64,000 bases of DNA from assembly GCF_017313225.1 (NCBI RefSeq), contig NZ_JAFLNE010000001.1:992001-1056000 (forward strand), in the 5' to 3' direction. Both the position numbers and the translations under genes were made by a program. Below are positions 13,362-46,675 of the stretch, in pieces (position 1 is the first letter of the stretch; every line of letters starts with the position of its first letter). The notes below the pieces were generated by a model that had not been told where the DNA came from, did no database searches, and saw nothing but the letters and a program-made list of their open reading frames with translations. The stretch is from Allomuricauda sp. CAU 1633 (lineage in GTDB: Bacteria > Bacteroidota > Bacteroidia > Flavobacteriales > Flavobacteriaceae).

Positions 13362-13442
13362 TCCGTAAAAATAGGGAAACATTGGGCATAAAAAACGGAT
13401 TGCTGGTACACAATCCGTTGATTCTTGGCTGTTTAGCCCTTG

Positions 13443-13484
13443 TAGCGGGAACTGGACTCGAACCAGTGACCTTCGGGTTATGAG
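13443..13484 (-). pseudogene. 3' fragment of initiator tRNA-fMet (att core)
   Basis: 42 nt identical to the 3' part of the intact tRNA at 46603-46644: the T arm, variable loop, 3' anticodon stem and most of the anticodon loop. Homology stops within the loop, at TTATGAG on the + strand; beyond it the sequence differs (TTCCACC). This is the footprint left when a tyrosine recombinase element integrates in a tRNA gene. Confidence 0.88.
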
Positions 13485-31038: not shown

Positions 31039-31977
31039 TCATTGAATGAAAGAACCTTCTCTCTCAATATGAGTGGGGACATATTTTTCAATAATGTATT
31101 CAGTAATTTCATCAAGTGTTTTACCTGTAATGGGGTGTAACCCAGGAGAGGTAAAGTATTCAATCTCTTCATCCCTGTTTTTAAAGTACCAAATTATTGG
31201 CTTGCCATCCTCTGTAAAAAAATTTGTGGACATTGTTACTTCAACTTTCTTGAAATTCTTCAATTTAACGGGGTCTAGGGGCTCTACCGCTGTACCAAAT
31301 TTAGAGTAGGGTTTGGTAGTGCAAGAGACTTCAACATATATTGTATCGGCCCAGGTCATGCATTTTTCCCTTGTAATGGATTGGGTGTCATTTTTAAGGT
31401 TTGTTGAAGAGTTGCTGTTGTCACTTGGTATTTGATTTTTCAAAATCAAGGAAGTTGCTAAAATAGCAGCAAAAGAGATACTAATGGTTATGATTAGCTT
31501 CCGTCTGGAAGGCTTTGTACTTTCTTTTGTATTATCTGTTTCCTTGATATTCTTCGCCTCTTCAATAATTTTGGATATTGGTGGATTAATTGGTGATTCC
31601 GAAATATTTGAATTATTGGATTTTGAATACTCTTCGTAAGGTCGGGGATGAAAATCAATAAGCCAGCTTATCAAATTAATATTCTTGGTACTGGTCGTTT
31701 TGATTTTTCCTTTTAGGAATTTTTCAATTGATTTAAACTTTCCAATTCCATGGGTTTCTATTTCTCTTTGCTTATTATCATTACTCTTGAATTCAAAAAA
31801 ACGATTAAGAATATAATCGTCATTCTTTTCATTTCTTCTTCCTAATAGATAAATACAAGCATCTCTTATTTGACTACATGTTGGCTTAGCGAGATAACCT
31901 CTCATTTCTCCCCCTTTTTCCCTTTTATATTTCTCTAAAACCGCTTCTTGGTAGCTTTTACTTGTTCTTGGTTCCAT
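31039..31977 (-). CDS. Hypothetical single-pass membrane protein
   Basis: 312 aa. Residues 1-110 are a soluble, charged domain with Cys at 34 and 41. A low-complexity Ser/Asn linker follows, then one membrane helix at about 165-185 and an external domain of about 125 residues with three Cys (CMTWADTIYVEVSC) and FTSPGLHPITGKTLDEIT. The order suggests a cytoplasmic domain joined to a periplasmic one, an anti-sigma or sensor-like layout, but I do not recognise either domain. An 11-bp repeat pair lies just upstream of its ATG. Confidence 0.65.
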   Translation of the reverse strand: MEPRTSKSYQEAVLEKYKREKGGEMRGYLAKPTCSQIRDACIYLLGRRNEKNDDYILNRFFEFKSNDNKQREIETHGIGKFKSIEKFLKGKIKTTSTKNINLISWLIDFHPRPYEEYSKSNNSNISESPINPPISKIIEEAKNIKETDNTKESTKPSRRKLIITISISFAAILATSLILKNQIPSDNSNSSTNLKNDTQSITREKCMTWADTIYVEVSCTTKPYSKFGTAVEPLDPVKLKNFKKVEVTMSTNFFTEDGKPIIWYFKNRDEEIEYFTSPGLHPITGKTLDEITEYIIEKYVPTHIEREGSFIQ

Positions 31978-32036: not shown

Positions 32037-32170
32037 AATCACCTATAAAGATAACCGTTAAGCACTAATAATTTTACATCCAAAGATGAATTCCGCTATG
32101 CTTTGCTAACATAGCTTTTCTAGAAGATTCATTTTTATGGGATTCTGTAATGCGGCTAGTATTTGGTCCG

Positions 32171-32214
32171 TTGGAAAGTAGCCAAGTCTGCCGCTTACAG
32201 TTTCCACTTTCCAA
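32171..32214 (+). other. 9-bp inverted repeat with 26-nt loop
   Basis: TTGGAAAGT (32171-32179) and ACTTTCCAA (32206-32214). It is about 100 bp upstream of the 56-aa lipoprotein and could be an RNA hairpin in its leader or a protein-binding dyad. Confidence 0.3.
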
Positions 32215-32317
32215 AAACAAAGGAGTACTCCAACACTCACGGGTGGCTGAAAAGCAAAACAAATCTGGGAAAATCCCGGACAGTCACCCCTTTGTTTAAT
32301 GTAAAAATTTCATAAAA

Positions 32318-32488
32318 ATGAAGAAAATTTTTTTGGCCTTGATAGCCGTTGTTTTGAATGTGTTTATGTTTTCTTGTACTACAGAAGACATAGCCGATAC
32401 TGAGACCTTTTACCATACTGTGGCAACGGAGGGGGATGATGGGAACCCACCGCCCCCACCCCCACCACCACCTCCTGGTGACAAGTAG
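32318..32488 (+). CDS. 56-aa poly-proline lipoprotein
   Basis: ATG 32318 to TAG 32486-32488. A signal peptide of about 19 residues ends NVFMFSC (lipobox). The mature part is about 37 residues: an acidic stretch (TTEDIADTETF), then GDDGNP leading into ten consecutive prolines and GDK at the end. A clear 9-bp terminator starts 22 bp after the stop. It directly precedes a TPR histidine kinase gene, and I infer it may be an envelope ligand or reporter for that kinase. No function is known for such peptides. Confidence 0.7.
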   Translation: MKKIFLALIAVVLNVFMFSCTTEDIADTETFYHTVATEGDDGNPPPPPPPPPPGDK

Positions 32489-32510
32489 TAAGGATTATTT
32501 TCACTAATTT

Positions 32511-32540
32511 GAGCTATACTTTCGGGTATAGCTCTTTTTG
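32511..32540 (+). terminator. Terminator between the small lipoprotein and the kinase
   Basis: GAGCTATAC (32511-32519) pairs exactly with GTATAGCTC (32526-32534) across TTTCGG, followed by TTTTT. It separates, or attenuates between, the two genes. Confidence 0.88.
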
Positions 32541-32557
32541 GTTTTTATATAAATCTA

Positions 32558-34510
32558 TTGTCCTTGAAAAAGTTTCTGATTTTAACTTTTATTGGTTTAA
32601 GCGTTTGCTGTACCCCTAGTGGCAAGAAACCTATTTCAAGAGCTGCCGATAATATTAAAGACAGTGTTTTACACTACTATTATCAATCCTTGGATAAGAA
32701 TCTTTCCCTGGTACAAAAACAGCAAAAGATTGATAAGTCCTTTTTCCTTGCAAAAAATCACCTATATGATTCTATTTATAGTCAAATTTTGTATCAAAAA
32801 AACTCCCTTCACCTTGCTTCCCAAGAATATGATAGTTTGCAGATTTATAATAAACTCCTAATTAATCATGCTTTAAAAATAGGTGATGACCATATGCTGG
32901 CTTATCAATATTACTTGATGGGTTATTATTTTGCTGAGAGAGCCCATAATTCAGAAGAAGCATTTCAAAATTATACACTTTCAAAAGGTTACTTTGAGCA
33001 AATTGGTGATAGTAGTGGAGTAGGTAGGAATCTTTTAAATATGGGTACAATTCAAAAAGATTTCAACGATTTTTTTGGCAGCAAAGAAACCCTTACTGAG
33101 GCATTACAGTATTTAGTGCCTGAAAATGATACTGTGTACATTGCCCAATGTTATAATCTATTAGCCACAGATCATCGAAAACTTCTGAATTATGATGACG
33201 CGATTATATATTATTTAAAGGCAATCAATACCACTAATTCGATAGAAGATAGATTAATATACAAGAATAATTTGGCTGCTACCTATATTGATGATGCTCG
33301 CTATAGGCAAGCCGTTCATTTACTGGACAGTATTGCCACTGAATCCTTAATCATGAAAAACGGGTATGAATATGCCCGTGTATTGGACAATCTTGCATAT
33401 GCTAGTTGGCTTTCGAGAAAGGAAAAAGCCGTAGATCCTTTTTTACAAGCTTTAGAAATACGTCAACAAAACAATGATAAGAGAGGACAAATTGCCAGCT
33501 ATACCCATTTGGGTGAATTTTTTTCCAAGAATCAACATCAAAAAGCACAAGCATATTTTGATACTGTGATCAATCTGTCCAAAACCATAAAAATGCCACG
33601 GGCAGAAAAGGATGCATTAAAATTCTTGATGCATTTAGAGCCTACAAATTTTCAATTGCGTGATCGCTATGTTTTTTTGCAAGATAGTCTATATGAGCAA
33701 GAGCTGAAGGTGAAGACCCAATTTGCCAAGTATAAATATGATGATAAACTCAAGCAAGAATCCATTTTACGGCTGGAGAAGGAAAATGCGGAAAAAGAGT
33801 TGGAAGCAAGCAGACAACGTAACCAGAAAATCATTTATCTAGGAGGTTTCCTTTTTGTAATATCCGTTTTGGGCCTGTCTATATATAGTTTTGGACAACG
33901 AACCAAAAGGTTAAGGCAAAAAAACAAAACGGATAAATTAATGGCCACCCATGAAACGGAGGCCGAATTGTCCAGAAGATTGCACGATGGTTTTGGGGCA
34001 GGACTCAACCAAACCATGTTGATGGTGCAAAATGATATGGACAAATCAACATTGTTGGATACTTTGGAAGGCCTCTACAACCAGAGTAGGGACTTTTCTC
34101 GAGAAATCAATGAAGTAAACACTGGATCCAAATTTAGAGAAGAGTTTTTTGAAATGCTCCGGTTTAGGACACCGCTGAATGCAAAGCTGCTCATTACGGG
34201 AAGTAAGGAAATCAATTGGGCAGAGATTGCTCCATTGACCAAGACGGTACTTTACAAGGTGCTTCAGGAATTAATGATAAATATGGGTAAGCACAGTGAA
34301 GCGACTTTGATTACCATTTCATTACAAAAAGTAGATAAAATGCTGAAAGTAGACTATATCGATGATGGGGTTGGAGCTTCTGTTGAAGATTTGAATGCCA
34401 AAAATGGACTTCGAAATACAGAAAAGCGTATTCAAGCCTTGGGGGGAACCATTACATTTGATTCAGGAAAAGGTGATGGCTTTAGGGCCAACATCATCCT
34501 ACCGAAGTAA
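32558..34510 (+). CDS. TPR-containing sensor histidine kinase (NarL-partner type)
   Basis: 650 aa from a TTG at 32558 (or TTG 32564); no ATG fits, and the start lies 18 bp after the terminator T run, so the transcript may begin very close to it. The signal segment ends SVCC. About ten helix pairs (residues 80-370) form TPR repeats, followed by a coiled coil, one membrane helix at about 427-448, and a cytoplasmic kinase with a dimerisation segment LSRRLHDGFGAGL (HisKA_3-like His) and an ATPase with LQELMINMGKHSEAT and DDGVG. The following response regulator begins 15 bp on. The sensor domain is periplasmic. Confidence 0.88.
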   Translation: MSLKKFLILTFIGLSVCCTPSGKKPISRAADNIKDSVLHYYYQSLDKNLSLVQKQQKIDKSFFLAKNHLYDSIYSQILYQKNSLHLASQEYDSLQIYNKLLINHALKIGDDHMLAYQYYLMGYYFAERAHNSEEAFQNYTLSKGYFEQIGDSSGVGRNLLNMGTIQKDFNDFFGSKETLTEALQYLVPENDTVYIAQCYNLLATDHRKLLNYDDAIIYYLKAINTTNSIEDRLIYKNNLAATYIDDARYRQAVHLLDSIATESLIMKNGYEYARVLDNLAYASWLSRKEKAVDPFLQALEIRQQNNDKRGQIASYTHLGEFFSKNQHQKAQAYFDTVINLSKTIKMPRAEKDALKFLMHLEPTNFQLRDRYVFLQDSLYEQELKVKTQFAKYKYDDKLKQESILRLEKENAEKELEASRQRNQKIIYLGGFLFVISVLGLSIYSFGQRTKRLRQKNKTDKLMATHETEAELSRRLHDGFGAGLNQTMLMVQNDMDKSTLLDTLEGLYNQSRDFSREINEVNTGSKFREEFFEMLRFRTPLNAKLLITGSKEINWAEIAPLTKTVLYKVLQELMINMGKHSEATLITISLQKVDKMLKVDYIDDGVGASVEDLNAKNGLRNTEKRIQALGGTITFDSGKGDGFRANIILPK

Positions 34511-34524
34511 AACAGTTGCCTACT

Positions 34525-35190
34525 ATGTTCAAAAAAGTTTTGATTGCCGAAGATTTTCAAGATACCAATCAAGGTATTATGGATACGCTTCGCACTAAAT
34601 TTAGCATCCCCATTGTTCAGGAAGAGTTGTATTGTGACAAAGCCTACAACCGTCTTAAATTGGCTCATGTCCAAGACGAACCATACGAATTATTGATTAC
34701 CGATCTTTTATTTAAGAAAGACCATATGGATCGCAAACTTACCTCAGGTTTGGAACTCATAAGAGCTGCAAGGGAAATTCAGCCTGATTTAAAGGTTATC
34801 ATCAATTCCATGGAAGACAATCCCGTAAAGGTGAATAACCTTTTTAAGGAGGAAAACATAAATGCTTACGTCTGTAAAGGTCGCCATGGCATGTTGGAAT
34901 TGGTAAAGGCCATACAGGAAGTGTACCATAACCGTACTTTCGTTTCACCCCAGATTAGCCTGAACGTCTCCGACAATGTGTTTGAACTTGACGAGTTTGA
35001 CCGTATTATTTTGAAAGACCTTGCCAATGGTCTCACCAAGAAAGAAATCTCGGAAAAGCTCAAACAGCAAAACATTACCCCAAATAGCGAAAGCACTATA
35101 GATAAAAAAGTAAGCAAGTTATTTGATGAGTTTGGGGCAAAAAATACACATCATTTGATAGCCAAACTGGTTAGGGAAGGTAAGATCTAA
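34525..35190 (+). CDS. Response regulator with C-terminal LuxR-like HTH
   Basis: 221 aa from ATG 34525; a TTG three codons earlier is less likely. The receiver has acidic residues at IAEDFQD, the phospho-acceptor in LLITDLLF, and a Lys region at YVCKGRHG. The C-terminal HTH (IILKDLANGLTKKEISEKL, STIDKKVSKLFDEFGAKN) is LuxR-like but diverged. It is the partner of the TPR kinase 15 bp upstream. The target is unknown; the small lipoprotein gene is the natural candidate. Confidence 0.86.
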   Translation: MFKKVLIAEDFQDTNQGIMDTLRTKFSIPIVQEELYCDKAYNRLKLAHVQDEPYELLITDLLFKKDHMDRKLTSGLELIRAAREIQPDLKVIINSMEDNPVKVNNLFKEENINAYVCKGRHGMLELVKAIQEVYHNRTFVSPQISLNVSDNVFELDEFDRIILKDLANGLTKKEISEKLKQQNITPNSESTIDKKVSKLFDEFGAKNTHHLIAKLVREGKI

Positions 35191-35256: not shown

Positions 35257-35300
35257 AATGGGGTTAGGTTTGACATGTGATAATCTTAAAAAAAACAGTC
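35238..35300 (+). repeat. Duplicated leader, copy 1
   Basis: From the CTGTAAGGGATTG arm to the ATGGC start, this segment recurs at 36911-36970 with scattered changes. It includes a Bacteroidota -7 box, TAGGTTTG, at 35265-35272. Both copies stand directly before a small-protein gene that starts ATGGC. Confidence 0.6.
35265..35272 (+). promoter_or_regulatory. Probable -7 promoter box of the 48-aa gene
   Basis: TAGGTTTG matches the TAnnTTTG consensus and is conserved in the second leader copy (TACGTTTG, 36938-36945). No clear -33 TTTG lies at standard spacing (an ATTG is 14 bp upstream), so strength is uncertain. Confidence 0.4.
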
Positions 35301-35447
35301 ATGGCAAAAACAGCTCCTTTTTACAGTATCAATTCCAATGTACACCACAATAATACTAGATGTACTGAAGGAAATAACATAGAACCAGAAAATAGAAGGT
35401 CCGGTACTGGAGGCAAACCATTGTGTAGTCATTGTGCTCGACTTTAG
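35301..35447 (+). CDS. 48-aa small Cys/His protein
   Basis: ATG 35301 to TAG 35445-35447. The composition is NVHHNNTRCTEGNNIEPENR, then GTGGKPLCSHCARL. The His/Cys at 15-16 and 21 with the C-terminal CxxC suggest a zinc-binding knuckle. Short proteins of this pattern occur widely in Bacteroidota without assigned function. It has its own leader and is followed 56 bp later by the nuclease-like gene. Confidence 0.7.
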   Translation: MAKTAPFYSINSNVHHNNTRCTEGNNIEPENRRSGTGGKPLCSHCARL

Positions 35448-35503: not shown

Positions 35504-36556
35504 ATGGAACTCCAAAACCAACTCAAAACCCTGGCCGAAAAAGTGGTCAAGCTAAAAGGACAGATTGATACCGAGGAATCCACCAAACATGCCTTTGTGT
35601 TACCATTCATCAACCTTTTGGGGTACGACACATTCAATCCAACCGAAGTAGTGCCGGAGTTTACGGCCGATTTGGGCCTAAAAAAAGGGGAAAAGGTGGA
35701 TTATGCCATTTTCCAGAATGGGGAGCCCATCATCATTATCGAATGTAAAAACTGGAAGGAAAAGCTCACGGCGCACAACTCCCAACTGTTTCGGTATTTC
35801 CACACCACCAAAACCCGGTTTGCACTCCTTACCAATGGTATAGAATATCAGTTTTATACGGACCTGGAAGCGGCCAATAAGATGGACGAAAAGCCCTTTT
35901 TGGAGTTCGATATTACCCAGTTAAAGGAAAACAGCATCAATGAGATTGCCAAGTTCCACAAATCCAATTTCAATATCGAGGAGATTGTGGACAATGCTAG
36001 CTCCCTCAAGTATACCAAGGAGATAAAGAAATTGATTGCAGAGGAATTGCAAGCTCCATCATATCATTTTGTCCGGCTGTTTGCTGGAGAAGTGTATTCT
36101 GGCCGGCTTACTGAAAAGGTGATGGGGGAATTCACTGATTTGGTAAGCAAGGCCTTTACCCAGACCATTAGTGAAAAGGTGAACGATCGATTAAATTCAG
36201 CTCTTAACAAAGAAGCCGAAAAACAGCAGGAAGAGCACAAAGAACCTGAAAAAATCAGTAAGGTGAACACTACGGAGGAAGAACTGGAAGGCTATCGGAT
36301 TGTGGTGGCCATTTTGCGGAGAAAACTTCCTGTTGAGCGTATTGTACACAGGGATACCCAATCGTATTTCGGGATTTTGTTGGACGACAATAACCGAAAG
36401 CCCCTGTGTCGTCTCTATTTTAACGGGAGCAATAATTACTTGGGAATTTTTGGCGAGAAAAGAAAAGAAACTCGACACTTAATACAAGCTGTGGAAGAAA
36501 TATACCAGTTTGAGGAAGAATTGCTAAAAAGCATTGATTATTATGAAGGCAACTAA
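35504..36556 (+). CDS. Solitary HsdR-N-like nuclease-domain protein
   Basis: 350 aa from ATG 35504, which gives the standard start (MELQNQL); the frame is open to 35432. Residues 22-140 match the N-terminal nuclease domain of type I restriction HsdR proteins, with a PD-(D/E)xK-like set: Glu24/25, Asp66, and the Glu80-Cys81-Lys82 motif in IIIIECKNW. There is no helicase domain and no methylase or specificity gene nearby. The C-terminal half (about 255-350) has a small conserved domain with LCRLYFNGSNNYLGIF. This makes it either a standalone DNA-acting defence nuclease or a non-restriction nuclease fold protein. Next gene overlaps by 14 bp. Confidence 0.8.
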   Translation: MELQNQLKTLAEKVVKLKGQIDTEESTKHAFVLPFINLLGYDTFNPTEVVPEFTADLGLKKGEKVDYAIFQNGEPIIIIECKNWKEKLTAHNSQLFRYFHTTKTRFALLTNGIEYQFYTDLEAANKMDEKPFLEFDITQLKENSINEIAKFHKSNFNIEEIVDNASSLKYTKEIKKLIAEELQAPSYHFVRLFAGEVYSGRLTEKVMGEFTDLVSKAFTQTISEKVNDRLNSALNKEAEKQQEEHKEPEKISKVNTTEEELEGYRIVVAILRRKLPVERIVHRDTQSYFGILLDDNNRKPLCRLYFNGSNNYLGIFGEKRKETRHLIQAVEEIYQFEEELLKSIDYYEGN

Positions 36557-36773
36557 AGCCATCTTAATACCATTATTCTATTTGGGTTTCACCAGTTTCT
36601 TTGCTCCCTCAAAATCTGACAACAATGTCTTCCTCTGCATGGGAAAAGGCAGCAAAAGATATCACTATATCAAAAACTGTCGGGGACTTTCCAACTGTTC
36701 TACCAAGATTTACGAAGTCACTTTAAAAAAAGCCAAGGAAATGGGTCGCACCCTTTGTGGTTGGGAAGACTAA
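36543..36773 (+). CDS. Small secreted Cys-rich protein
   Basis: 76 aa from ATG 36543, overlapping the stop of the nuclease gene by 14 bp. A signal-like hydrophobic stretch (ILIPLFYLGFTSFF) precedes the mature domain CMGKGSKRYHYIKNCRGLSNCS, then VTLKKAKEMGRTLCGW. The Y-H-x3-C ... A-x3-G-x3-C pattern is shared with small exported domains found beside nucleases and competence-type proteins, probably metal- or nucleic-acid-related. The overlap suggests joint translation with the nuclease. Confidence 0.65.
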   Translation: MKATKAILIPLFYLGFTSFFAPSKSDNNVFLCMGKGSKRYHYIKNCRGLSNCSTKIYEVTLKKAKEMGRTLCGWED

Positions 36774-36910: not shown

Positions 36911-36970
36911 TGTAAGGGATTGTGTTGTAATGGGTTTACGTTTGAAATGTAAATTATTAAAACCAATATT
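36911..36970 (+). repeat. Duplicated leader, copy 2
   Basis: Counterpart of 35238-35300: CTGTAAGGGATTG, TAATGGG, TTTGA(A/C)ATGT and TTAAAA in the same order before ATGGC. The 5' arm of the hairpin is missing here, so it is not a terminator. It carries the promoter box TACGTTTG. Confidence 0.6.
36938..36945 (+). promoter_or_regulatory. Probable -7 promoter box of the nine-gene operon
   Basis: TACGTTTG (TAnnTTTG consensus), 25 bp before the DUF1508 start. Conserved in position with the copy at 35265. Confidence 0.45.
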
Positions 36971-37156
36971 ATGGCATTTCCAAAATTCGTTATCTCAAAA
37001 AGTAGAAACAATCAATTTTACTTTAATCTATTTGCCTCAAATGGTAAAGTGATTGCAACAAGTGAAATGTATGTTTCCAGGCAAGGTTGTGAAAATGGTA
37101 TTTCAGCCGTTAAGCGTGATGCTCTGGTTGCCGGAGTGGAGGATACAACCTCATAG
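36971..37156 (+). CDS. YegP/DUF1508 family small protein
   Basis: 61 aa, one DUF1508 repeat: FYFNLFASNGKVIATSEMYV, then GCENGISAVKRDA. Longer members carry two copies; this is a single-repeat form. The role of the family is unknown. It opens a run of nine genes on the + strand with gaps of 2-21 bp, ending at 43387. Confidence 0.85.
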   Translation: MAFPKFVISKSRNNQFYFNLFASNGKVIATSEMYVSRQGCENGISAVKRDALVAGVEDTTS

Positions 37157-37177
37157 TTTTCGAAAGTTAGCTAATAC

Positions 37178-37603
37178 ATGGCCACCATTCTCTTGTTTAC
37201 CGTCCTCATTTTAATTCTGGTCGATATCTTTTTGGCCTATGAGGTCCCAACACATGTAGCTTACATCTTGTTGACCGTCATTATTGTGCTGACACTGGAT
37301 GGTGGCCCGGTGCATAAGATACTTCTCGGGGGATTACTTTGGTTTGGATTTTTGGTATTTCATTACCTCGTTTGGAGAAGGCTTATTGAAAAGATTCATG
37401 ATAAGATAATTGCACCACAAAGACATACAGGAGGTATAGAAGGTTTGATTGGAAAAAGTGGGATTGTAAAAGAAATAGGAGGGACAAAATTCATTCTTGT
37501 CAATGAAGAACTCTATGAATTTGAGAACACTGGAAATAAGGACATCATTACAGGAAATACTTATAAAATAGTAAATACATCATCAAACAAGCTAATCATT
37601 TAA
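37178..37603 (+). CDS. NfeD-like membrane protein
   Basis: 141 aa. Two or three membrane helices (residues about 3-20, 26-42, 48-66) are followed by a short C-terminal OB-fold domain (GLIGKSGIVKEIGGTKFILVNEELYEF). NfeD proteins pair with stomatin/SPFH proteins and help assemble or quality-control membrane microdomains. The partner starts 10 bp downstream. The serine-protease part of long NfeD forms is absent. Confidence 0.85.
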   Translation: MATILLFTVLILILVDIFLAYEVPTHVAYILLTVIIVLTLDGGPVHKILLGGLLWFGFLVFHYLVWRRLIEKIHDKIIAPQRHTGGIEGLIGKSGIVKEIGGTKFILVNEELYEFENTGNKDIITGNTYKIVNTSSNKLII

Positions 37604-37613
37604 AAACATTGTT

Positions 37614-38441
37614 ATGGCTATCATTTATACCGTACCGCAGAACCATGTAGTGCTCATTAAACGTTTTGGAAAGCATTCAAGAATACAAAAAGAAGGTATC
37701 CGATTTAAGGTTCCTCTCATAGACGAAATCAAATATGTATACAACTGGAAAGGTGTTGCCAACAAAGGAGGACGTTTTATCGAGCTATCAGAGCAGCAGA
37801 GCGATACACCACCGAGGCAATGTCAGACCCTTGATAATGTTACCATGGAGGCCAATGCATCTATTTATTGGCGAATCCTAGATCCTGTGAAGGCAGTGTA
37901 TGATATTGACATTTTGCCTAAATCCATCACAGACATTGCTCTAAATGCTTTACGGGCCAATATTGGAAAATTGAAGTTGGATGAGGTGCTGTCAGAAAGG
38001 CAAAACCTCAATCAAAAAATTGCGGCTGAACTCATTGAAGTAGCATCAAAATGGGGAGTTACGTTTACCAGGGTAGAGATTCAAGAAATCAAATATTCCA
38101 AAGACACGGCCGATGCCATGATGCAGGAAATGACGGCAGAAAGAAAAAAACGCGCTCTGATTGCAGAAGCAGAGGGCATGGCCAAATCTGAGCTGACCAG
38201 GGCTAAGGCAGATGCGGAAGCAAATTTGATAAGGGCCAACGCCCAAGCTGAGGCACTCAAGATTATCGCAGAGGCAGAAGGTAATTATATTCTTAAGCTC
38301 AGAGAGCAGACCAGCGAAGAAGCCGCAAGTAAAATTATCCTCTCGCAGAAATATTTAGATGGGATGAAAATCATTACACAGAATCCCAGTAACAAGGTTT
38401 TTTTGCCTGATGGATTCATAGGAAGATATGAAATAAACTAG
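37614..38441 (+). CDS. Stomatin/SPFH (band 7) protein
   Basis: 275 aa. The SPFH domain (about 5-180) shows KRFGKHSRIQKEGIRFKVPL and the VTMEANASIYWRI strand. It is followed by a long Ala/Glu/Lys-rich coiled coil (about 180-245, with IAEAEG and ADAEANLIRANAQAEALKI). It lacks an obvious N-terminal membrane helix, so membrane attachment is likely through the NfeD neighbour or hairpin insertion. It forms oligomeric membrane scaffolds; the family is linked to membrane stress and lipid domains. Confidence 0.92.
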   Translation: MAIIYTVPQNHVVLIKRFGKHSRIQKEGIRFKVPLIDEIKYVYNWKGVANKGGRFIELSEQQSDTPPRQCQTLDNVTMEANASIYWRILDPVKAVYDIDILPKSITDIALNALRANIGKLKLDEVLSERQNLNQKIAAELIEVASKWGVTFTRVEIQEIKYSKDTADAMMQEMTAERKKRALIAEAEGMAKSELTRAKADAEANLIRANAQAEALKIIAEAEGNYILKLREQTSEEAASKIILSQKYLDGMKIITQNPSNKVFLPDGFIGRYEIN

Positions 38442-38448
38442 ATCGTCC

Positions 38449-38823
38449 ATGAGCAAAGGATTTTTTGACTATTTCGTATCTGTAATCTCGGCTTGTTGTG
38501 CCTTGCTTCTGTTCATAGCAGTTTTAAAAGCTTCCCGAGAATATTATTGGCTGCTACGTACGGTGATTTTCATTGGGGCATTATTGGTTATTATCAAAAA
38601 CAGTAATCATTTATATTGGGGGCTCTTGTTTGGATTGGTAGCCATACTCTTCAATCCCATATTTCCCATATTTCTCTACAAAAAAATGTATTGGGTTCCC
38701 CTGGATATTTTGACTGGAATGTTGTTTCTCATAGAGGTCATCATCAACCGTCCCAAAAAAGTAAAACCTGTACCTACTACTAAAAAGAAGGTGAAGAAAT
38801 ACGAACGAGACCGAATGTACTAA
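38449..38823 (+). CDS. Small membrane protein (DUF6804-like)
   Basis: 124 aa with four membrane helices (about 7-25, 35-49, 56-72, 82-96) and a strongly basic tail (RPKKVKPVPTTKKKVKKYERDR). It lies 7 bp from the stomatin gene and 18 bp from the TerB-like gene. I do not know its function; the basic tail could bind membrane lipid or a partner. Confidence 0.65.
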   Translation: MSKGFFDYFVSVISACCALLLFIAVLKASREYYWLLRTVIFIGALLVIIKNSNHLYWGLLFGLVAILFNPIFPIFLYKKMYWVPLDILTGMLFLIEVIINRPKKVKPVPTTKKKVKKYERDRMY

Positions 38824-38841
38824 CCAAAACTATATTAAAGT

Positions 38842-39246
38842 ATGCAAGAAATTACCATAACTGCAGAATTGAAAAGTCATTTTTTAAGGTTATATCAAAT
38901 CGCCCTTTCTGATGACAATTTTGATGTACTTGAAATGCAAATGTTATATGAATTTGCCAAAGATAGAGGGGTCTCAAAAGAACAGTTAAACAATCTACTA
39001 TTGAGTCCCACAAATCAATCTGCCATACCTGAAACCCAGGAAAAGAGAGTTGAATATTTATATGACCTCGCCGTAATGATTTGGGCAGATGGGAAAGTTA
39101 CTGAGGATGAGTACAATACCTTGAAAAAGTACTGTAAAAAATTTGAATTTCTTGAGGATAACATTGTTCAAATAGTAGACTTCCTTTTGGAGAGTGCAAA
39201 AAACAAAAAGGGGAAGGAAGAGATTCTAAAAAACCTTAACACCTAA
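38842..39246 (+). CDS. TerB-like protein
   Basis: 134 aa all-helical. The core AVMIWADGKVTEDEYNTLKKYCKKF matches the A-D-G-x(4)-E signature of TerB (tellurite resistance) domains, with a first half-repeat around YQIALSDDNFDVLEMQMLYEF. TerB domains are cytoplasmic, acid-rich and metal-linked, and in known ter-type systems occur with VWA and membrane proteins, as here. Confidence 0.75.
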   Translation: MQEITITAELKSHFLRLYQIALSDDNFDVLEMQMLYEFAKDRGVSKEQLNNLLLSPTNQSAIPETQEKRVEYLYDLAVMIWADGKVTEDEYNTLKKYCKKFEFLEDNIVQIVDFLLESAKNKKGKEEILKNLNT

Positions 39247-39251
39247 ATAAC

Positions 39252-40514
39252 ATGGAAAATATCAAGAAACTCTTTACGCTTAAAAAAAGCACGGCCAAGG
39301 ATGACATAAAAGAAAATCCCGAAGAATCAAAAGAACAAATAAGGATTACATATTACCAGAGTGGATATGGTGCTTCCACCAAGGCTTCGGGTGAGCCAAT
39401 GACCTTTGGAGTTGGATTAAAGAACCTGTACAACAGTTTTGAAGACCAGTGTAGAAAACAACTACATGAGCAAAAAAAATTAAAACAACCCTATATCGAG
39501 GAACAAGAAAAATACAAAACTGAGCTTAAAAAAAGAGAAACGGCCATTGGGATTCTTGAAGAGCAAATCAACAATACTTCTTCGGCGATAGAAGAAAAAA
39601 AAGCTGATATGATAGCGGTTAAACAAAGTCCTGAAAAATATGGCATTGATGCCGATAAACGCCCAAAAGCTCAATTTTATATAGGTCTTCTGCTATTGCT
39701 TCCAATTACAATCTACCTGTTTGTATTCTACATTTCGGCCTCTTATTCAGGGTTTTTTAAAGATTTTGAGACAGATAGTCTAACAGCTGCAATTTTTGAT
39801 GCTAATGCATTGAGCAAGGCAATTTCAGATGGAATGTTGGAAGCGATATTCGTCGGGACCATTCCATTTGTCTTCATGGGACTTGGATATTTGGTTCATA
39901 TGTTTCATAAGATAAAAGGATGGCAAGCCATTCTAAAATTAGTATCCCTTTTTGTGTTAACCTTCATTTTTGATGTAATACTTGCTTACTTGATCGAAAA
40001 GAAAATATTCTTGTTTGATGCTGTGGTTGGGCAACAGTTTACCCCGACCGATGCAATACAGAGTGTTAATTTTTGGGGGATTATATTTGCAGGCTTCGTA
40101 GTTTATATCATTTGGGGATTGGTGTTTGATTTTGTAATGAAAGAGCATGAAAATGTTGACAAAATCAAAGCTTTCATACGAGCTAAAAAAGATGAAATAA
40201 AAAACCTTGCGCTCATTCTTGAAGAACTCAATGGCAAAATTGATAAGGCCAGACATGACATAACCTTGTTCCAAGGTAAAATTTCAGAGCTACAGTCCAA
40301 AATAGATGGATTTATTTTTCCTGTAAAAGAATACCTGCATTACCATTATCAGTATAAAGAGGGGTGGTACCAGGCAATAAATGCGGAATTGGCATTGCCA
40401 AAAAAAGAAAAAGATGAACTCCGGGAAAGCTGTGAATCTATAGCAAGCCAACATCTGCAAAGCCTCAATTTAACAGAGATGGACTTCCAAAACTTAATCT
40501 TCACAACAAACTAA
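39252..40514 (+). CDS. Coiled-coil membrane protein of unknown function
   Basis: 420 aa. Cytoplasmic N-terminal coiled coil (about 60-130), four membrane helices (about 142-165, 195-216, 222-246, 270-295), then a second coiled coil (about 305-355, EHENVDKIKAFIRAKKDEIK onwards) and an acidic end. The two coiled coils flanking the membrane part suggest a large cytoplasmic scaffold. No transporter motif (Walker, permease) is visible. It sits 5 bp after the TerB-like gene and 3 bp before the VWA-like lipoprotein. Confidence 0.65.
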   Translation: MENIKKLFTLKKSTAKDDIKENPEESKEQIRITYYQSGYGASTKASGEPMTFGVGLKNLYNSFEDQCRKQLHEQKKLKQPYIEEQEKYKTELKKRETAIGILEEQINNTSSAIEEKKADMIAVKQSPEKYGIDADKRPKAQFYIGLLLLLPITIYLFVFYISASYSGFFKDFETDSLTAAIFDANALSKAISDGMLEAIFVGTIPFVFMGLGYLVHMFHKIKGWQAILKLVSLFVLTFIFDVILAYLIEKKIFLFDAVVGQQFTPTDAIQSVNFWGIIFAGFVVYIIWGLVFDFVMKEHENVDKIKAFIRAKKDEIKNLALILEELNGKIDKARHDITLFQGKISELQSKIDGFIFPVKEYLHYHYQYKEGWYQAINAELALPKKEKDELRESCESIASQHLQSLNLTEMDFQNLIFTTN

Positions 40515-40517
40515 AAA

Positions 40518-41420
40518 ATGAAACCATATATATATACAATATTCACTTTGGCTTTGTTCTTATTTGCTTGCAAAGGGGATAATAAAAATGAGATTTCTGA
40601 AGCGAAAGATAAATACAATAAGATAAAAAAAGAGGATGTGAATCTCAATATAAGTCTCTTGTTGGATTTGTCAGACAGAATAGACACTACCAAATACCAT
40701 AACGAGGCATTGGAGTTCTATTTGAGGGATGTAGGGTATATAGAGTCCATTGCCAATTCTTTTGTTGAATATTTAAAGGTTAAAAGGATACGTGCGATGG
40801 ACGATAAAATTGCAGTTTTCTTTGATCCGGTACCCCAAAATCCGAAAATAGATAGGATTTCGGAAAGCTTGAAATTCCATGTAACCAGAAACAATGCTTC
40901 ATTGGATTTATTTGAAGACATAAAGGATACCTATAAAAGTAAATCAAGGGAAATCTATGAACAAGCTTTATCAGATGGCAAGTATGTGGGGTCAGACACC
41001 TGGAACTTTTTTAAAAATAAGGTTAAGAGTTTTTGCATTGAAGAAAATTCCAGCAATCTCCTCATTATTTTAACAGATGGCTATTTGTATCATGAGAATA
41101 ACCTAAGAAAAGAAGGGAACCTGTCAACCTATTTAACCCCCCAATTCATAAGAACCCATAAACTTAATGACTCTAATTGGAAAGAAAGATTTGAGGGTGA
41201 CGGATATGGTTTTATTCCCGCTTCAGGAAACCTTGAAAATTTACAAGTTTTGGTTTTAGGGATAAATCCCAATAAAGGCAATGTTTATGAAGATGATGTA
41301 ATAAAAGCTTATTGGAAGGAATGGCTTGAGGAAATGGAGGTTGGGTATTATGAAATTAGAAATTCGGAACTACCATCGGACATGGACAAAATCATCCGGA
41401 ATTTCATCCTAAACAAATAG
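40518..41420 (+). CDS. VWA-like lipoprotein
   Basis: 300 aa. The signal peptide ends LFLFAC (lipobox). The mature part has von Willebrand A features: a first strand with DLSDRID (Asp50, Ser52; the DxSxS motif is imperfect), a central LLIILTDGYLYHENN strand with the TDG turn, and LQVLVLGINP. The MIDAS site may be partial. VWA proteins with TerB and membrane partners are known in stress/defence systems. The frame starts with MKPYIYTIF, 3 bp after the previous stop. Confidence 0.7.
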   Translation: MKPYIYTIFTLALFLFACKGDNKNEISEAKDKYNKIKKEDVNLNISLLLDLSDRIDTTKYHNEALEFYLRDVGYIESIANSFVEYLKVKRIRAMDDKIAVFFDPVPQNPKIDRISESLKFHVTRNNASLDLFEDIKDTYKSKSREIYEQALSDGKYVGSDTWNFFKNKVKSFCIEENSSNLLIILTDGYLYHENNLRKEGNLSTYLTPQFIRTHKLNDSNWKERFEGDGYGFIPASGNLENLQVLVLGINPNKGNVYEDDVIKAYWKEWLEEMEVGYYEIRNSELPSDMDKIIRNFILNK

Positions 41421-41422
41421 TC

Positions 41423-41938
41423 ATGGCGTTCCGATTTCACAAAAGGGTTAAACTGGGAAAAGGTTTTGGGGTTCATATCAGTAAATCTGGAATTACGCCA
41501 AGCTATAGGGGGAAGCGGGGTAGTTTAAGCTCAAAAGGATATTCCATTAGGACCGGAATTCCTGGGTTGACTTATCGTAAAACTTTTTCAAAAGCAAAAA
41601 ATAGTGGGTGTTTGGTTGTGTTCTTTGTTGTATTTGTCATTGCTTGTACAGCTGTGGAAAGCGAAAGAATAGATGCTGAAGAAACCTTAGGTTGCAGGGA
41701 TACAAATTGTGCCAATTATACTTCACAGGCTGCAGCCCAAGCTGCGTACAATGCCGACCCAGAATGTAGGAACGATTTAGATGCTGATAAAGATGGTATC
41801 GCCTGTGAAGAACCCGGTAATAGTGTGAAAACCTGTGCTACAACTTCAAATTGCGGATGCTCCAACAAGAACAAAGCCCCTTGCCAAGCCGACCCTTGTT
41901 GCAGGTGGGTCGTGGGGGAAGGGTGTAGGTGCAATTAA
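41423..41938 (+). CDS. DUF4236-TM-Excalibur chimeric protein
   Basis: 171 aa. Residues 1-55 match DUF4236 (FHKRVKLGKGFGVHISKSG, GIPGLTYRK), a small basic domain. A membrane helix follows (about 62-78, SGCLVVFFVVFVIACTAV). The external part holds a Excalibur-like calcium-binding motif (DADKDGIACE at about 122-131) and a Cys-rich end with about ten Cys. I know of DUF4236 and Excalibur separately; the fusion is uncommon to my knowledge. It is the eighth gene of the operon. Confidence 0.7.
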   Translation: MAFRFHKRVKLGKGFGVHISKSGITPSYRGKRGSLSSKGYSIRTGIPGLTYRKTFSKAKNSGCLVVFFVVFVIACTAVESERIDAEETLGCRDTNCANYTSQAAAQAAYNADPECRNDLDADKDGIACEEPGNSVKTCATTSNCGCSNKNKAPCQADPCCRWVVGEGCRCN

Positions 41939-41959
41939 ATAAGGTGGTAGGTAAAAACC

Positions 41960-43387
41960 ATGAAACAGTTTTTGAGATATTGGTTCTTGGATGAGGAAAA
42001 TCCAAAAAAATACCTGTTGGATGTCTTCATTGCCTCAATGATTCTGCTTTCCATTGTGCTCATCTTTTTTCAAAATGAACACCAATATCTTTCCAAGGAT
42101 TTGGAGTATGTGGATAAGGTTGTGCTCCTATTTTTTATTGCGGAATATGGAATCCGTTTCTATATCTGTTCGGATTTTAGGGACGATTGCCATGCCAAGG
42201 GCCTGCTTTTTGCGACAAGGCAAAAACTTTATTGGATGGCCAAACCAACATCGTTGATTGACCTATTGGCCATTTTGCCGTCCTTGGGGTTCTTTAGGGC
42301 CTTTCGGATGCTCCGCCTTCTGCGCTTTTTAAGGTTGTTCCGTTTGGTAAGGGCCTTCAAAATATTTCGCCAAATAGACAAGCTACACATCATTCTCCAG
42401 GGCATGAAAGAGCACAACAGGATGTTCTATATCTTTTTTTCGGTAACGCTCTTTATTCTATTGGTGTTGAGTTTTGGCTTATATAGTGTAGAACACAATC
42501 AGGACAGCGAAGCGTTTTATAGCTTTACCAATTCCTTTTGGTATTCCCTTGAATTGATAGAATTGGCCGATACTACCCCCAAGACCGTTTTTGGAAAGCT
42601 TCTTTCCGTCCTACTGCTGATTTTCAACATGGCCATTTTTGGCTTTTTTATCTCGATTATCCTCAATAAAATCACTTTGGTCATGAATGCTATTACTTCT
42701 GGGAAAATATCTCGCCTCAACATCAAGAACCACGTTGTGATATGTGGTTACACCAAATCTGCGGAAAAGGTCATACAAGACTTGCTTCGAGACAAAAGGT
42801 ATTGCAATAAGATTGTCCTGATTACCCAAAAACCCATTGCCGATAAAGACGGACTCATTTACGTAAATGCTGATTATACGGATTACAATACCTTAAAGTT
42901 AGTGCAGATAAAGCATGCCAAATTTGCCATTGTCTTTGCAGAATTTAATGAGCATGATACCATTCGGGATGTAGACCTGAGAACAGTAATGACTGTTTTT
43001 CATATTGAAAAGGAGGCCCCTGAGACCCATACTATTGCTGAAATAAACGATGAGGTCAACGCGGAGATCATCAGGGACAAGATCATGGGAGATGAAATCC
43101 TGTTCAAGGAGTTGATCGATGCCAAGATTATCTCTACCTGTATAGGTCATCCCAATGTTTCCAATTTGTTCTACCAACTCTTTGGTGAGGGAGGAGAACG
43201 GGTAAAAAGTCTAAAACCGACCGAATTGGGGCTTTCTGTTCCAGTGATGATCAAGGATATAAAACTACTTTTACTGGAAAAAAATGAAACTCTTTTGGGT
43301 GTGATCAACCATCAAAATGAATCGGTATTGTCACCAAAAAATGATATGTTGGTAGATGATAGTGATCGGTTGGTCTACCTGTCGTAG
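41960..43387 (+). CDS. Voltage-gated-type ion channel with TrkA-N domain and altered selectivity filter
   Basis: 475 aa. Six membrane segments; the S4-like helix (about 111-140) has Arg/Lys every third or fourth residue (FRAFRMLRLLRFLRLFRLV). The pore region between S5 and S6 reads SFWYSLELIELADTTPKT (192-209) and lacks the TVGYG filter, about three residues shorter than in K+ channels. S6 is followed by a TrkA-N/RCK domain (about 255-400, HVVICGYTKSAEKVI) and a TrkA-C-like end. A potassium or other monovalent-ion regulatory role is expected from the RCK part, but ion selectivity cannot be predicted. Confidence 0.82.
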   Translation: MKQFLRYWFLDEENPKKYLLDVFIASMILLSIVLIFFQNEHQYLSKDLEYVDKVVLLFFIAEYGIRFYICSDFRDDCHAKGLLFATRQKLYWMAKPTSLIDLLAILPSLGFFRAFRMLRLLRFLRLFRLVRAFKIFRQIDKLHIILQGMKEHNRMFYIFFSVTLFILLVLSFGLYSVEHNQDSEAFYSFTNSFWYSLELIELADTTPKTVFGKLLSVLLLIFNMAIFGFFISIILNKITLVMNAITSGKISRLNIKNHVVICGYTKSAEKVIQDLLRDKRYCNKIVLITQKPIADKDGLIYVNADYTDYNTLKLVQIKHAKFAIVFAEFNEHDTIRDVDLRTVMTVFHIEKEAPETHTIAEINDEVNAEIIRDKIMGDEILFKELIDAKIISTCIGHPNVSNLFYQLFGEGGERVKSLKPTELGLSVPVMIKDIKLLLLEKNETLLGVINHQNESVLSPKNDMLVDDSDRLVYLS

Positions 43388-43394
43388 GAGAGTT

Positions 43395-44210
43395 CTAGTT
43401 CAATCTAAACCTCAAAAACACCGGCAAATGATCTGATAACTTTCTGGCCTCTTCTAATTGATCACAAAACCTGACAAAGTCGATTACACCCCCTTCTACC
43501 TTGTGAATACTTTTCGAATAAAAAATATTGTCAATGGGGTAGTTGAGGTAATTGGTTCGTTCACAGCTCCGTTTTAAAGTGGTCTTTTGGTCGGTAATGG
43601 CCGTTTGGTAACCTGATTTTTTCAAAGTGTTGAAGACGGGCATTTTTTCATCCACATTAAAATCCCCTGCAATGATCACTGGGGTCTTCAAAGAATCAAT
43701 AACAAACTTGGAAAGGGCTTCAATTTCACTCTCTGGGTCCTTGTTGTAGGGTCTTGAATGATAATCGACCACTGTAAATTGTTTCCCATCTATATAAAAG
43801 TGCAACAAAAAGGGTTCCCTATCGATTAAGGAATCCAACTCCGAAATGAGCCAACCCCGGTTCTTGATCTTTATCCTATGGGTCTTCCAAATAAAGGCGT
43901 AACGTTCGGTAACGTACTTTGGACTATTGGTGGGGTCGCTGATGACATAGTCCCATTTAGCTCCTTTTCTATTCAGGATATCTGTGAGTTTGGCAACAGC
44001 CTGGGCACCACCAAAACCGGCCACTACTTCTTGAATGGCCAAAACATCGGTGTCATTTACAATTTGGGCAATCCTATTCAGTTCCTCAGTGTTCTTTGTT
44101 CTTCCAAAGTCTTTTATGTTCCAAGAGATTAAGGTGACTTCATCCTGTTGGGAAAAAGCAGGATAATACGAAACCAGCAGTAGTACTACTAAGGTTATTC
44201 TTTTTAGCAT
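43395..44210 (-). CDS. Secreted endonuclease/exonuclease/phosphatase-family protein
   Basis: 271 aa. A signal peptide ends PAFSQ. The EEP (DNase I-like) fold has SWNIKDFG, the metal Glu in VLAIQEV, the VVDYHSRP segment, AGDFNVDEK and the terminal SDHLPV histidine motif. All key catalytic residues are present. Likely an exported nuclease or phosphodiesterase. Its stop faces the stop of the channel gene, 7 bp away. Confidence 0.88.
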   Translation of the reverse strand: MLKRITLVVLLLVSYYPAFSQQDEVTLISWNIKDFGRTKNTEELNRIAQIVNDTDVLAIQEVVAGFGGAQAVAKLTDILNRKGAKWDYVISDPTNSPKYVTERYAFIWKTHRIKIKNRGWLISELDSLIDREPFLLHFYIDGKQFTVVDYHSRPYNKDPESEIEALSKFVIDSLKTPVIIAGDFNVDEKMPVFNTLKKSGYQTAITDQKTTLKRSCERTNYLNYPIDNIFYSKSIHKVEGGVIDFVRFCDQLEEARKLSDHLPVFLRFRLN

Positions 44211-45189: not shown

Positions 45190-46491
45190 CTATCTTTCGA
45201 ACAGGTGGGAATAGTCGTCCGGCAGTTCGGCATCGATGTCACGGAGGTACTTCTCAAGGGCGTCCATGGTGCTGTGGCCGGTTATGGGCAACAGTTTGCT
45301 CTTGGCCACGAAGGAGGGGTTGTCCTTTGCAAGCTTTCGATAAAGTTGGGTGATGTAGGTGTGCCTGAAACTGTACAGGCCATATTCCTTTCCGAGCCCC
45401 AGTTCTTCCTTCACCCTTTTGAACCGGTTTGTGAAATACCCCCTCTTGTTCTCCTCCGAGGTGTCCCAGACCCCTCCGATGCCCTCAGGGGTGAAGAGGA
45501 AGTGTTCCGGGTCCATTGCGGAAATATCCGGCAGTTCCCCCAAAAGGATGTCGGGGATTATCTTGGTCTTGTCGAGCTTGGTCTTGGTGCGCAGGTACAG
45601 CTTTTTGTCCCTTACATCGATGTCCCTTACCCTCAGCCTACACACCTCTATGGGCCTTAGGAAACAATAGGAGACAAAACGGACAAAGAGCAATAACAGG
45701 GGGTCATTTTTGCCCATATGCCCCTCTACCTTGGCAAGGAGGTCGGGGGCATAGGTCTTGTTTCTTTTTGGCTGGGTGCGCAGTTGGGGTATCCCCTTGA
45801 CAACGTTCCTGGCAATGATGTCGTTGTCCTCCAAGGTCTGGAACAGGGAGCTCAGGTCGGCCCTGGCATTGTTCCGGTTCCGTGCACTGGTGCGCTGCAA
45901 CACCTCGTTGAGGTACTCCATGACCGTTCTTTTGTCCAACAGTGCAACATTGTGGCCTTTGCCAAAACGTTGCACTGCCCACTCCCCGAAACGGTTGGCC
46001 CTGCTCCTGAACTTGATATAGGTCGATTCCCTTAGGGTCCTCTTTTTTATGGAAAGGGCCATTTCAAGGGCCTCCGTGACCCCCATTGGGGCATCCCCCT
46101 CCTTTGTTCCAATGGTCACCCGTTGGGGCCGCTCCTTTTCAATGGGGGCAATTGTGCCCTTATCCGGCACCCCTTCCTTTTTGCTAAAGAGCTCCCCCTC
46201 CAGTTCGGTGTTGTCGGCATAGGGACTGAAACCGGCCTCCAGGAGCATGGAAAGGTTCCTCTGGATGGTCCTCAGGTGGGCATAGCGCTGCCGCTTTGTC
46301 CCATATCGGTTGGCACCTGCCTTGATATTGGGCTGTCTCTTGAGCTTTCAGGTAGCTGGGTCACGGAAGGAATAGTAGACGTACCAGTCCCTGGCAAGGG
46401 CGTCCCTTTGCTCTTTCCTGGGGAGCTTGGACCAGCTTTTCGCATCGGCCCCACCTGTGTATATCCTGGGTTCTGAGAAGGCGCGTTTCAT
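45190..46491 (-). pseudogene. Tyrosine recombinase (integrase), interrupted by in-frame TGA
   Basis: Full frame from ATG 46491 to 45190, about 433 codons. A TGA at 46350-46348 falls where a Gly is expected (DPAT-stop-KLKRQP), one base from GGA. The 3' 352 codons form an open frame from an internal Met at 46248. Downstream domains are intact: SAM-like core-binding region (about residues 120-210), catalytic Arg in FLRPIEVCRLRV, HTYITQLYR box, GH in LPITGHS and the nucleophile Tyr in EKYLRD. The gene starts 112 bp downstream of tRNA-fMet. Readthrough, reinitiation at 46248 or inactivation are all possible. Confidence 0.88.
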
Positions 46492-46547: not shown

Positions 46548-46579
46548 TAAAAAAACGGATTGTATGTACACAATCCGTT
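46548..46579 (-). terminator. Terminator of tRNA-fMet
   Basis: On the minus strand AACGGATTGT and ACAATCCGTT form a 10-bp stem with a 6-nt loop, followed by a run of T. It lies 24 bp past the tRNA 3' end and separates the tRNA from the integrase. Confidence 0.88.
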
Positions 46580-46602
46580 GATTCTTGGCTGTTTAGCCCT
46601 TG

Positions 46603-46675
<73 letters not shown>

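Follow-up and report, generated by a model that had tools for sequence, protein, structure and literature searches.

The 64,000-nucleotide stretch of the Allomuricauda sp. CAU 1633 genome considered here as the window (assembly GCF_017313225.1, contig NZ_JAFLNE010000001.1, positions 992,001-1,056,000 of the forward strand) encodes a dense run of nine genes, g1 to g9, at positions 36971-43387. A preliminary description took this run for an operon and proposed it as a single system for membrane stress or defence. All nine open reading frames are present on the plus strand as claimed, with gaps of 21, 10, 7, 18, 5, 3, 2 and 21 bp, and they form the conspicuous section of a larger flavobacterial locus, an exchangeable one, that extends from about 31042 to 44210. 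In this locus a divergently oriented gene, F3, is followed by a structured leader RNA, the small gene F9, a histidine kinase with tetratricopeptide repeats (TPR), a LuxR-type regulator and a set of swappable small genes. The unit begins at about 31042 and not at 36971, where the operon had been taken to start, and the regulatory head upstream of that point had been missed.

The conserved triad

Comparable loci were gathered by means of g6, which yielded 118 loci, 80 from named records, 37 drawn evenly from across the family, and the window itself. By g6 sequence 108 of the 118 are distinct, and these are the basis of all counts given as x/108. The named-record loci are the best 80 of 169 by similarity and 46 of the 80 are titled Flavobacterium; the even sample of 397 family genomes is therefore the fairer denominator. 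The head and the nine genes are laid out in the window as follows.

31042..31977, minus strand: F3, divergent protein of 311 residues with one predicted transmembrane segment (161-179, by hydropathy) and no Pfam match
32138..32317, plus strand: structured leader RNA of about 180 nucleotides (model R1 matches 32138-32247 with 80.6 bits, the window row being also in the training set)
32318..32485, plus strand: F9, lipoprotein-like peptide of 55 residues with a lipobox and a polyproline tail
32488..32541, plus strand: terminator-like hairpin and T run between F9 and the kinase gene
32558..34510, plus strand: histidine kinase (HATPase_c 28.0 bits against a cut-off of 26.4; family in 94/108 loci)
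34516..35190, plus strand: response regulator, receiver and LuxR-like helix-turn-helix (family in 93/108 loci)
36971..37156, plus strand: g1, DUF1508 cassette (DUF1508 68.7 bits against a cut-off of 22; 14/108 loci)
37178..37603, plus strand: g2, NfeD-like membrane protein, rare cargo (NfeD 18.7 bits, below the cut-off of 29.1)
37614..38441, plus strand: g3, SPFH/Band_7 protein, rare cargo (Band_7 119.1 bits against a cut-off of 23.6)
38449..38823, plus strand: g4, DUF6804 membrane protein (67.5 bits against a cut-off of 27; 19/108 loci)
38842..39246, plus strand: g5, TerB-like protein, core (TerB PF05099 25.1 bits against a cut-off of 24.4, marginal)
39252..40514, plus strand: g6, membrane protein, core (no Pfam match over cut-off)
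40518..41420, plus strand: g7, VWA-fold lipoprotein, core (no Pfam match over cut-off; VWA by fold)
41423..41938, plus strand: g8, DUF4236-Excalibur cassette (DUF4236 27.2 bits against 27, Excalibur 23 against 22; 53/108 loci)
41960..43387, plus strand: g9, Ion_trans/TrkA_N (RCK) channel, rare cargo (both Pfam domains; channel family in 5/108 loci)

The co-occurrence of the TerB-like, coiled-coil membrane and VWA genes, which the preliminary description had singled out for checking, is that of a conserved core: g7 is the neighbour of g6, in the same direction, in 108/108 distinct loci, and g5 lies directly before g6 in 106/108. The scattering that it had named as the contrary outcome spares this triad, the order of which is kept, and affects g1-g4, g8 and g9, which come and go. 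Among the loci seen, the window and L133 are the only ones whose operon has both NfeD and SPFH genes (in L027/L111, which are one genome, an SPFH gene lies on the opposite strand), and the DUF1508, DUF6804 and channel genes are confined to the 14, 19 and 5 loci given above. The nine genes as a fixed system are therefore ruled out by the gene content of the individual loci and, because they are scattered between loci, the NfeD, SPFH, DUF1508, DUF6804, channel and DUF4236-type genes are regarded as interchangeable cargo. The earlier domain calls agree with Pfam, except that NfeD remains below its cut-off and that gene 4, described as a basic-tailed membrane protein, belongs to DUF6804.

In the even family sample g6 is found in 38 genomes and g7 in 42, and all 38 carry both. 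Two of the four additional g7 genomes, G078 and G002, have a divergent g6 adjoining g7, and the other two contain short fragments. A g7 remnant is situated between g4 and g8 in L212, and as its genus mate L133 has the triad in this very place, L212 likely represents a loss of the triad. Five divergent g6-g7 pairs occur inside the family; those of L146, L147 and L202 are located behind a kinase-regulator pair and that of L220 lies on a 4.8-kb contig.

The g6 protein contains four to five hydrophobic segments (residues 144-297) between two coiled-coil regions. Its predicted model is poor overall, with a mean predicted local distance difference test score (pLDDT) of 67.3 and a predicted template-modelling score of 0.41, and in it two long helices (about 49-125 and 272-352) are predicted with confidence, which is what coiled coils would give. 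Searches found 1417 relatives of g6. Public names among 120 listed relatives include ABC transporter permease, BAR domain protein, Asp23/Gls24 family and gas vesicle protein, none of which is supported by a Pfam match of g6. A phage origin of g6 is ruled out by the lack of any match among 50,697 phage records.

The g7 protein begins with a lipoprotein signal, which is followed by DLSDR at residue 50 and LTDGY at residue 185, motifs that we take to resemble the metal-site motifs of VWA proteins. An AlphaFold model built from 15 sequences reaches a mean pLDDT of 84.7 and has 10 matches in the PDB at E <= 0.001 (best 7.6e-6), mostly to integrin I, BatB and other VWA domains, with low template-modelling scores of 0.30-0.41 by query length. 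The VWA-like call made from the letters of g7 is thus upheld by its fold matches, low scores included. A profile search with g7 and F3 and a sequence search with the TerB-like protein against PDB chains gave nothing useful.

The regulatory head and its leader RNA

The head that precedes the triad is itself recurrent. F3 is present in 98/108 triad loci. In 90/108 the triad is preceded on its own strand by a kinase-regulator pair; 88 of these have divergent F3 no more than four genes ahead of the kinase, and in 83 of the 90 all genes between the regulator and g6 are co-directional. F9, or its Flavobacterium counterpart F10, is found within three genes ahead of the kinase in 76/108 loci. The kinase comprises an N-terminal hydrophobic segment, TPRs that are likely extracytoplasmic, a transmembrane segment (425-443), an RRLHDG motif and the HATPase_c domain. 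The matches of the regulator to Response_reg (20.8 bits against 30.2) and GerE are both below cut-off, and its residues D10, D60 and K118 are invariant in 13 aligned rows. Kinase and regulator accordingly form a two-component pair, with Response_reg below cut-off. A terminator-like hairpin comparable to that between F9 and the kinase is present in 48/127 F9/F10-kinase gaps and hence is not universal.

F3, the leader RNA and two of the cassettes described below were searched for in 199 family genomes. F3 occurs in 54 of these, in 18/19 genomes with g6 compared with 36/180 without a g6 hit (Fisher p 8.8e-11), where one of the 18 (G179) is counted by a weak match on another contig and one of the 36 (G078) does have a divergent g6. 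The order F3, F9, kinase, regulator is found in 25 of the 33 loci inspected from these 36 genomes; in the other eight at least one head gene is missing or the contig end is reached. Many of the heads that lack a triad continue with the same cassette pool, for example in L186, L193, L201 and L207. The head is more widespread than the triad, and it is most likely the sensing and control module, with the triad as a large effector that often follows it.

Some heads seem to have arisen by tandem duplication. In ten Flavobacterium records (L034, L036, L042, L043, L047, L049, L051, L054, L070 and L073) a second F3 and kinase, usually with F10 between them, lie at most 8 kb downstream of the first locus, and in L054 a regulator and cassettes of its own follow this second head. 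A shorter F3-like form of 117-188 residues, adjoining the RNA, faces the RNA-F9-kinase head in L255-L258, and in L292 (G666, outside the family) two tandem regulators are inserted between the kinase and the cassettes.

The leader RNA is composed of a long interrupted hairpin (P1), a pseudoknot (P2) in which a GGGAAGT-like heptamer in the apical loop of P1 pairs with ACTTCCC just 3' of P1, a small hairpin of near-palindromic sequence (P3), and an arm (P4) that carries a hairpin (P5) near the F9 start codon. In A6, an alignment of 25 leaders, 93.3% of 492 cells are paired compared with 75.2% in shuffles, double-sided changes are seen in 113 cells compared with 44.9, and the covariation score is 0.584 compared with 0.257 when shuffled and at most 0.208 when the partners are slid. 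The 100% pairing of P2 in A6 is biased, as its rows were picked from leaders with P2. In 48 further leaders outside the training set, retrieved with a model in which P2 is present as letters but not as base pairs, 322/331 P2 cells are paired, with G-C to A-T exchanges at three positions; a clear P2 is missing in 20/141 leaders. P5 reaches at least 5 bp in 91% of 80 tails (6% shuffled) and the full 7-bp P4 is present in 42.5% (0.6% shuffled), these 80 being the tails with the tail motif among 119 distinct ones. RNAalifold recovered little structure from the leader alignments because MAFFT misaligned P1 and because P2 is a pseudoknot; the structure was obtained by folding the sequences individually and was then counted on A6.

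Model R1 gives 73 hits over 100 sources. In the 199 family genomes the RNA model gives 52 hits at E <= 0.01, of which 44 pass E <= 0.0016, a cut chosen after the list of 52 had been seen. Forty of the 44 lie within 1.8 kb of F3 and four directly ahead of F9-kinase-regulator, and therefore the leader RNA is specific to this head. The eight weaker hits are not near F3, and six that were inspected include none with an F9-kinase head. Against Rfam 15, all seven matches in window positions 31900-32700 at E up to 5 are under their gathering scores, and a scan of seven loci at gathering score returned tRNAs only. One promoter pattern tried on 141 upstream sequences had no matches.

The encoding of a small, variable, lipid-anchored peptide beside its likely receptor is what interbacterial conflict or contact signalling would predict, in which case the TPR kinase would receive F9 as a peptide signal and conflict and immunity functions would come from the operon. 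The highly variable cargo agrees with this. It is nevertheless improbable, given that many F9 tails keep their proline-rich form, that g6 and g7 are strongly conserved and that no toxin family is found among the Pfam hits of the proteins scanned.

Island and cassettes

The locus is carried on an integrative island of 33 kb (13406-46644) at tRNA-Met, as the preliminary description anticipated when it placed the genes on a mobile island. The island boundaries and the further cassettes are:

13406..13484, no strand: left direct repeat (att-like) of the island, identical over 79 bp to 46566-46644
35277..35447, plus strand: possible small Cys/His protein of 56 residues (2/110 loci; no Pfam match)
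35504..36556, plus strand: F15, HsdR_N/PD-(D/E)XK-like (HSDR_N 61.1 bits against 25.1; 31/108 loci)
36543..36773, plus strand: u2, probably exported Cys/His protein (motif YHxxxCRGLxxC..LCGWED; 65/108 loci)
43395..44210, minus strand: F20, endonuclease/exonuclease/phosphatase fold, probably exported (Exo_endo_phos 41.9 bits against 24.5; 22/108 loci)
45190..46248, minus strand: tyrosine integrase of the island (Phage_integrase 33.7 bits against a cut-off of 27.1)
46566..46644, no strand: right direct repeat (att-like), overlapping tRNA-Met 46602-46675

A 24-bp piece of the repeat has two copies in the window, and a 22-bp piece has only two in the entire genome. It is the combination of these 79-bp repeats, the tRNA site and the integrase with the twofold occurrence of the 22-bp piece that identifies the integrative island. 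The island looks composite, because a stretch at 18900-25000, which by eye includes a SusC/SusD-like pair, is richer in G and C (0.42-0.51) than the remainder, which is at about 0.32-0.42 up to 44 kb.

The cassette pool further includes F8 (Excalibur) in 53/108 loci, F12 and F13 (YidD-like) in 35 each, F14 (DUF4177-like, below cut-off) in 30, F19 (SNase) in 22 and F18 in 21. In the 199 genomes, 16 of the 20 strong places of u2 (E < 1e-18; five weaker ones of 25 were excluded) have F3 or the triad at most 16 kb away, and 12 of the 15 places of F18 that were used out of 16 lie within 8 kb of F3. The u2 and F18 cassettes thus belong largely to such loci. Restriction-modification-like genes were noticed by eye in the neighbourhood, namely an HsdM-like family, F37, in L017, L135, L196 and L203, and a C5-type methyltransferase-like gene in L146 (13384-15084). 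When 91 of 362 distinct flanking proteins were compared with PADLOC, 99 families were matched, which is a raw count; the matches listed, which cover 25 of the 99 families with one protein each, include Hachiman, PD-Lambda-1, Old, PDC-S48 and a type II methyltransferase.

Cargo of the SNase, endonuclease/exonuclease/phosphatase, HsdR_N and Excalibur types would also suit a role in DNA handling, in which exported nucleases and Cys/His proteins use or take up extracellular DNA and g6-g7 serves as a transport platform. The nucleases are variable (F19 22/108, F20 22/108, F15 31/108) whereas the triad is constant, and several F3 heads are followed by no such nuclease at all, so that this role is unlikely. 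Still further from probable is a chance run of short genes without a common function. The small cassettes do vary between loci, and so do six of the nine genes, as such a run would, but the constant order of the triad, the confined cassettes and the covarying RNA speak against it, and for the triad and the head it is contradicted.

Relatives in CRISPR loci, readings and known systems

Outside the family, g6 and g7 are found in another setting. The only plasmid match of g6 is a distant one, a 704-residue protein on plasmid pSP2_2 of Runella sp. SP2, which profile comparison resolves into a g6-g7 fusion with a g6-like part at 47-403 (probability 99.0, E 3.6e-18) and a g7-like part at 554-702 (probability 97.8, E 1.2e-12). 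The fusion is encoded among genes annotated cmr4, cmr5, cmr6, csx2, cas1 and cas2, in a type III-B locus of clustered regularly interspaced short palindromic repeats (CRISPR). It served as the query for a phylum-level search of 198 genomes. Eight g6/g7 contexts were seen outside the family, three with type III CRISPR genes and two with a Csx20-type ring nuclease. G534 has a Csm5-like RAMP protein and Cas1 near g6-g7; G700 has Card1, a Csm6-type ring nuclease, Cas6, and Cas1 joined to a reverse-transcriptase-like part; the Csx20-type ring nuclease is over the curated cut-off in G598 and below it in G596. G475 and G666 contain a kinase, a regulator and the triad, and G434 has g5-g6 at a contig end. 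In L290 a DprA-like protein (1444-2436) adjoins the Csx20-like gene and the g6-g7 pair.

In other Bacteroidota, it therefore appears, type III CRISPR loci have recruited the g6-g7 pair. As no cyclic-nucleotide sensor is recognised and Csm1/Cmr2 models find no match, the link is read as one of shared recruitment and not of a shared trigger. No cas family is found among the window proteins scanned with Pfam. Although the pair is shared with CRISPR loci, the six genomes checked that carry the flavobacterial locus have no Csm1/Cmr2 match, and the trigger in the window would therefore be another one. The proposal of a defence candidate made in the preliminary description receives indirect support from the type III CRISPR or ring-nuclease neighbours in five of the eight outside contexts.

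There is about an even chance that the locus is a mobile, two-component-controlled membrane effector locus for phage defence or envelope damage, a reading in which the architecture is observed and the function inferred. Under this scheme F9, situated in the envelope, would serve the TPR domain of the kinase as a ligand or load sensor and inform it of the state of the envelope or of damage, and the leader RNA would set both the amount of F9 and the frequency with which transcription passes into the kinase gene. The phosphorylated regulator would turn on the operon. Lipid-anchored g7 and inner-membrane g6, with its coiled coils in the cytoplasm, would constitute one membrane effector that TerB may tether or gate. 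A cell under phage attack or envelope damage could in this way alter its membrane or halt growth, with nucleases and Cys/His proteins adding further action. A more specific form can be put forward tentatively, that of an undescribed innate immunity in which the pseudoknotted leader and the lipid-anchored peptide arm an extracytoplasmic TPR sensor that switches on g6-g7-TerB, the g6-g7 pair having also been captured, and once fused, by type III CRISPR. If this is true, one membrane effector serves both RNA-guided immunity and a Cas10-free pathway that senses the envelope.

A number of observations weigh against a defence function. The share of five in eight contexts with CRISPR-side neighbours is a raw count, and in L289 and L290 the Csx20-type gene is the sole recognised one, in L290 below cut-off. 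The Csm1/Cmr2 (Cas10) models have no match in six genomes with a flavobacterial locus, that of the window included, although control genomes were matched, and Pfam recognises no CARF or SAVED domain in g6 or g7, an unrecognised sensor being possible. g6 has a match in just one plasmid record, a distant one, and in no phage record. In 18/108 triad loci no kinase-regulator pair lies upstream in the stretch at hand, the divergent pair of L145 has no head and no defence gene in the little that was scanned, and the leader RNA may be an ordinary leader. Many of the Flavobacterium copies lie among the recurrent flanking genes F16, F17, F21 and F24, and look less like a defence island than like a resident regulon.

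This frequent resident position in Flavobacterium is compatible with a regulon for envelope or ionic stress that has no role in defence. The kinase would then sense a misfolded or displaced lipoprotein, and g6-g7-TerB, with an occasional NfeD, SPFH or channel protein, would stabilise the membrane. TerB and VWA are themes of stress systems, F9 is lipoprotein-like, and envelope proteins are numerous in the cargo (lipoproteins, SPFH, NfeD-like, the channel and the YidD-like F13). The patchy presence in 38/397 genomes, the island carriage in the window, the nuclease cargo and the CRISPR or ring-nuclease neighbours in 5/8 outside contexts are less easily accommodated, and a pure stress regulon is possible but doubtful.

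The locus brings three things within reach of study: a structured RNA that is new, lineage-specific and linked to a single receptor system; a lipoprotein of peptide size that is probably the partner of a TPR kinase; and a putative membrane effector of two proteins, outside any Pfam family, that a two-component locus and type III CRISPR neighbourhoods have in common. The membrane effector reading would give a role to g6, several of whose 120 listed relatives bear doubtful names, and would provide a setting for the orphan small domains DUF1508, DUF4236, DUF3892, DUF4177-like and YjzC-like.

Ter-type stress systems combine TerB with the VWA protein TerY. Like these, the locus encodes a TerB-like protein, by a marginal domain match (25.1 against 24.4), close to a VWA-fold protein, but this VWA protein is a lipoprotein and a Pfam scan of 37 proteins from the window and the cassettes finds no TerC/TerD-family partner. 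Membership in a Ter system is ruled out on the latter ground; of the ter-type theme proposed earlier the TerB domain and the VWA fold stand. The SPFH-NfeD microdomain pairs are matched by the NfeD-like and Band_7 genes side by side in the window; the pair is found in two of the loci seen and is cargo and not core. With the pair not conserved and NfeD below cut-off, membership in such a module is likewise ruled out, and the microdomain theme falls away as part of the system.

Membership in an anti-phage system of PADLOC-DB is ruled out, since 10 proteins gave no strong match. The weak ones link the TerB-like protein to PDC-S48 (6.6e-6), F15 to a restriction enzyme (0.0026) and g6 to Cas12 (0.0035 and 0.054). 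The type III CRISPR membrane effectors Cam1, Csx23 and CorA are similar in that small membrane proteins are located beside antiviral genes, but Pfam finds no CARF or SAVED domain in g6 and g7 and no cas family among the window proteins scanned; placement in a type III locus is seen for the distant relatives alone. Neighbourhood surveys of type III accessory proteins are said to have been made by Shah in 2019 and Shmakov in 2018, and g6-g7 could be an unnamed cluster in them. Two type III surveys (PMC11229360, PMC12409355) do not use the words 'VWA' and 'Willebrand' in their main text.

The leader is, like Flavo-1, Bacteroidales-1 and GUCCY-hairpin, which are structured RNAs of Bacteroidota (PMC2864571), lineage-specific, but it has no match in Rfam 15. 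GUCCY-hairpin has no Rfam accession in the table of that paper, and lies outside this comparison. In the titles and abstract openings of the open-licence literature no description of the locus, the leader RNA or the g6-g7 pair was recognised, nor do the available passages of PMC2864571, PMC11229360 and PMC12409355 describe them. The earlier statement that no described system with this set was known is borne out to the extent of these sources. TPR-kinase two-component systems share the kinase with TPR, transmembrane and HATPase_c parts and the receiver-LuxR-like regulator, and differ in that F9, F3 and a pseudoknotted leader are recurrent partners here. Beyond the two-component pair and the integrative island, the locus fits none of the tested families as a member. 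The system as a whole appears to be new, whereas its parts (two-component pair, VWA, TerB and small nucleases) are of known kinds.

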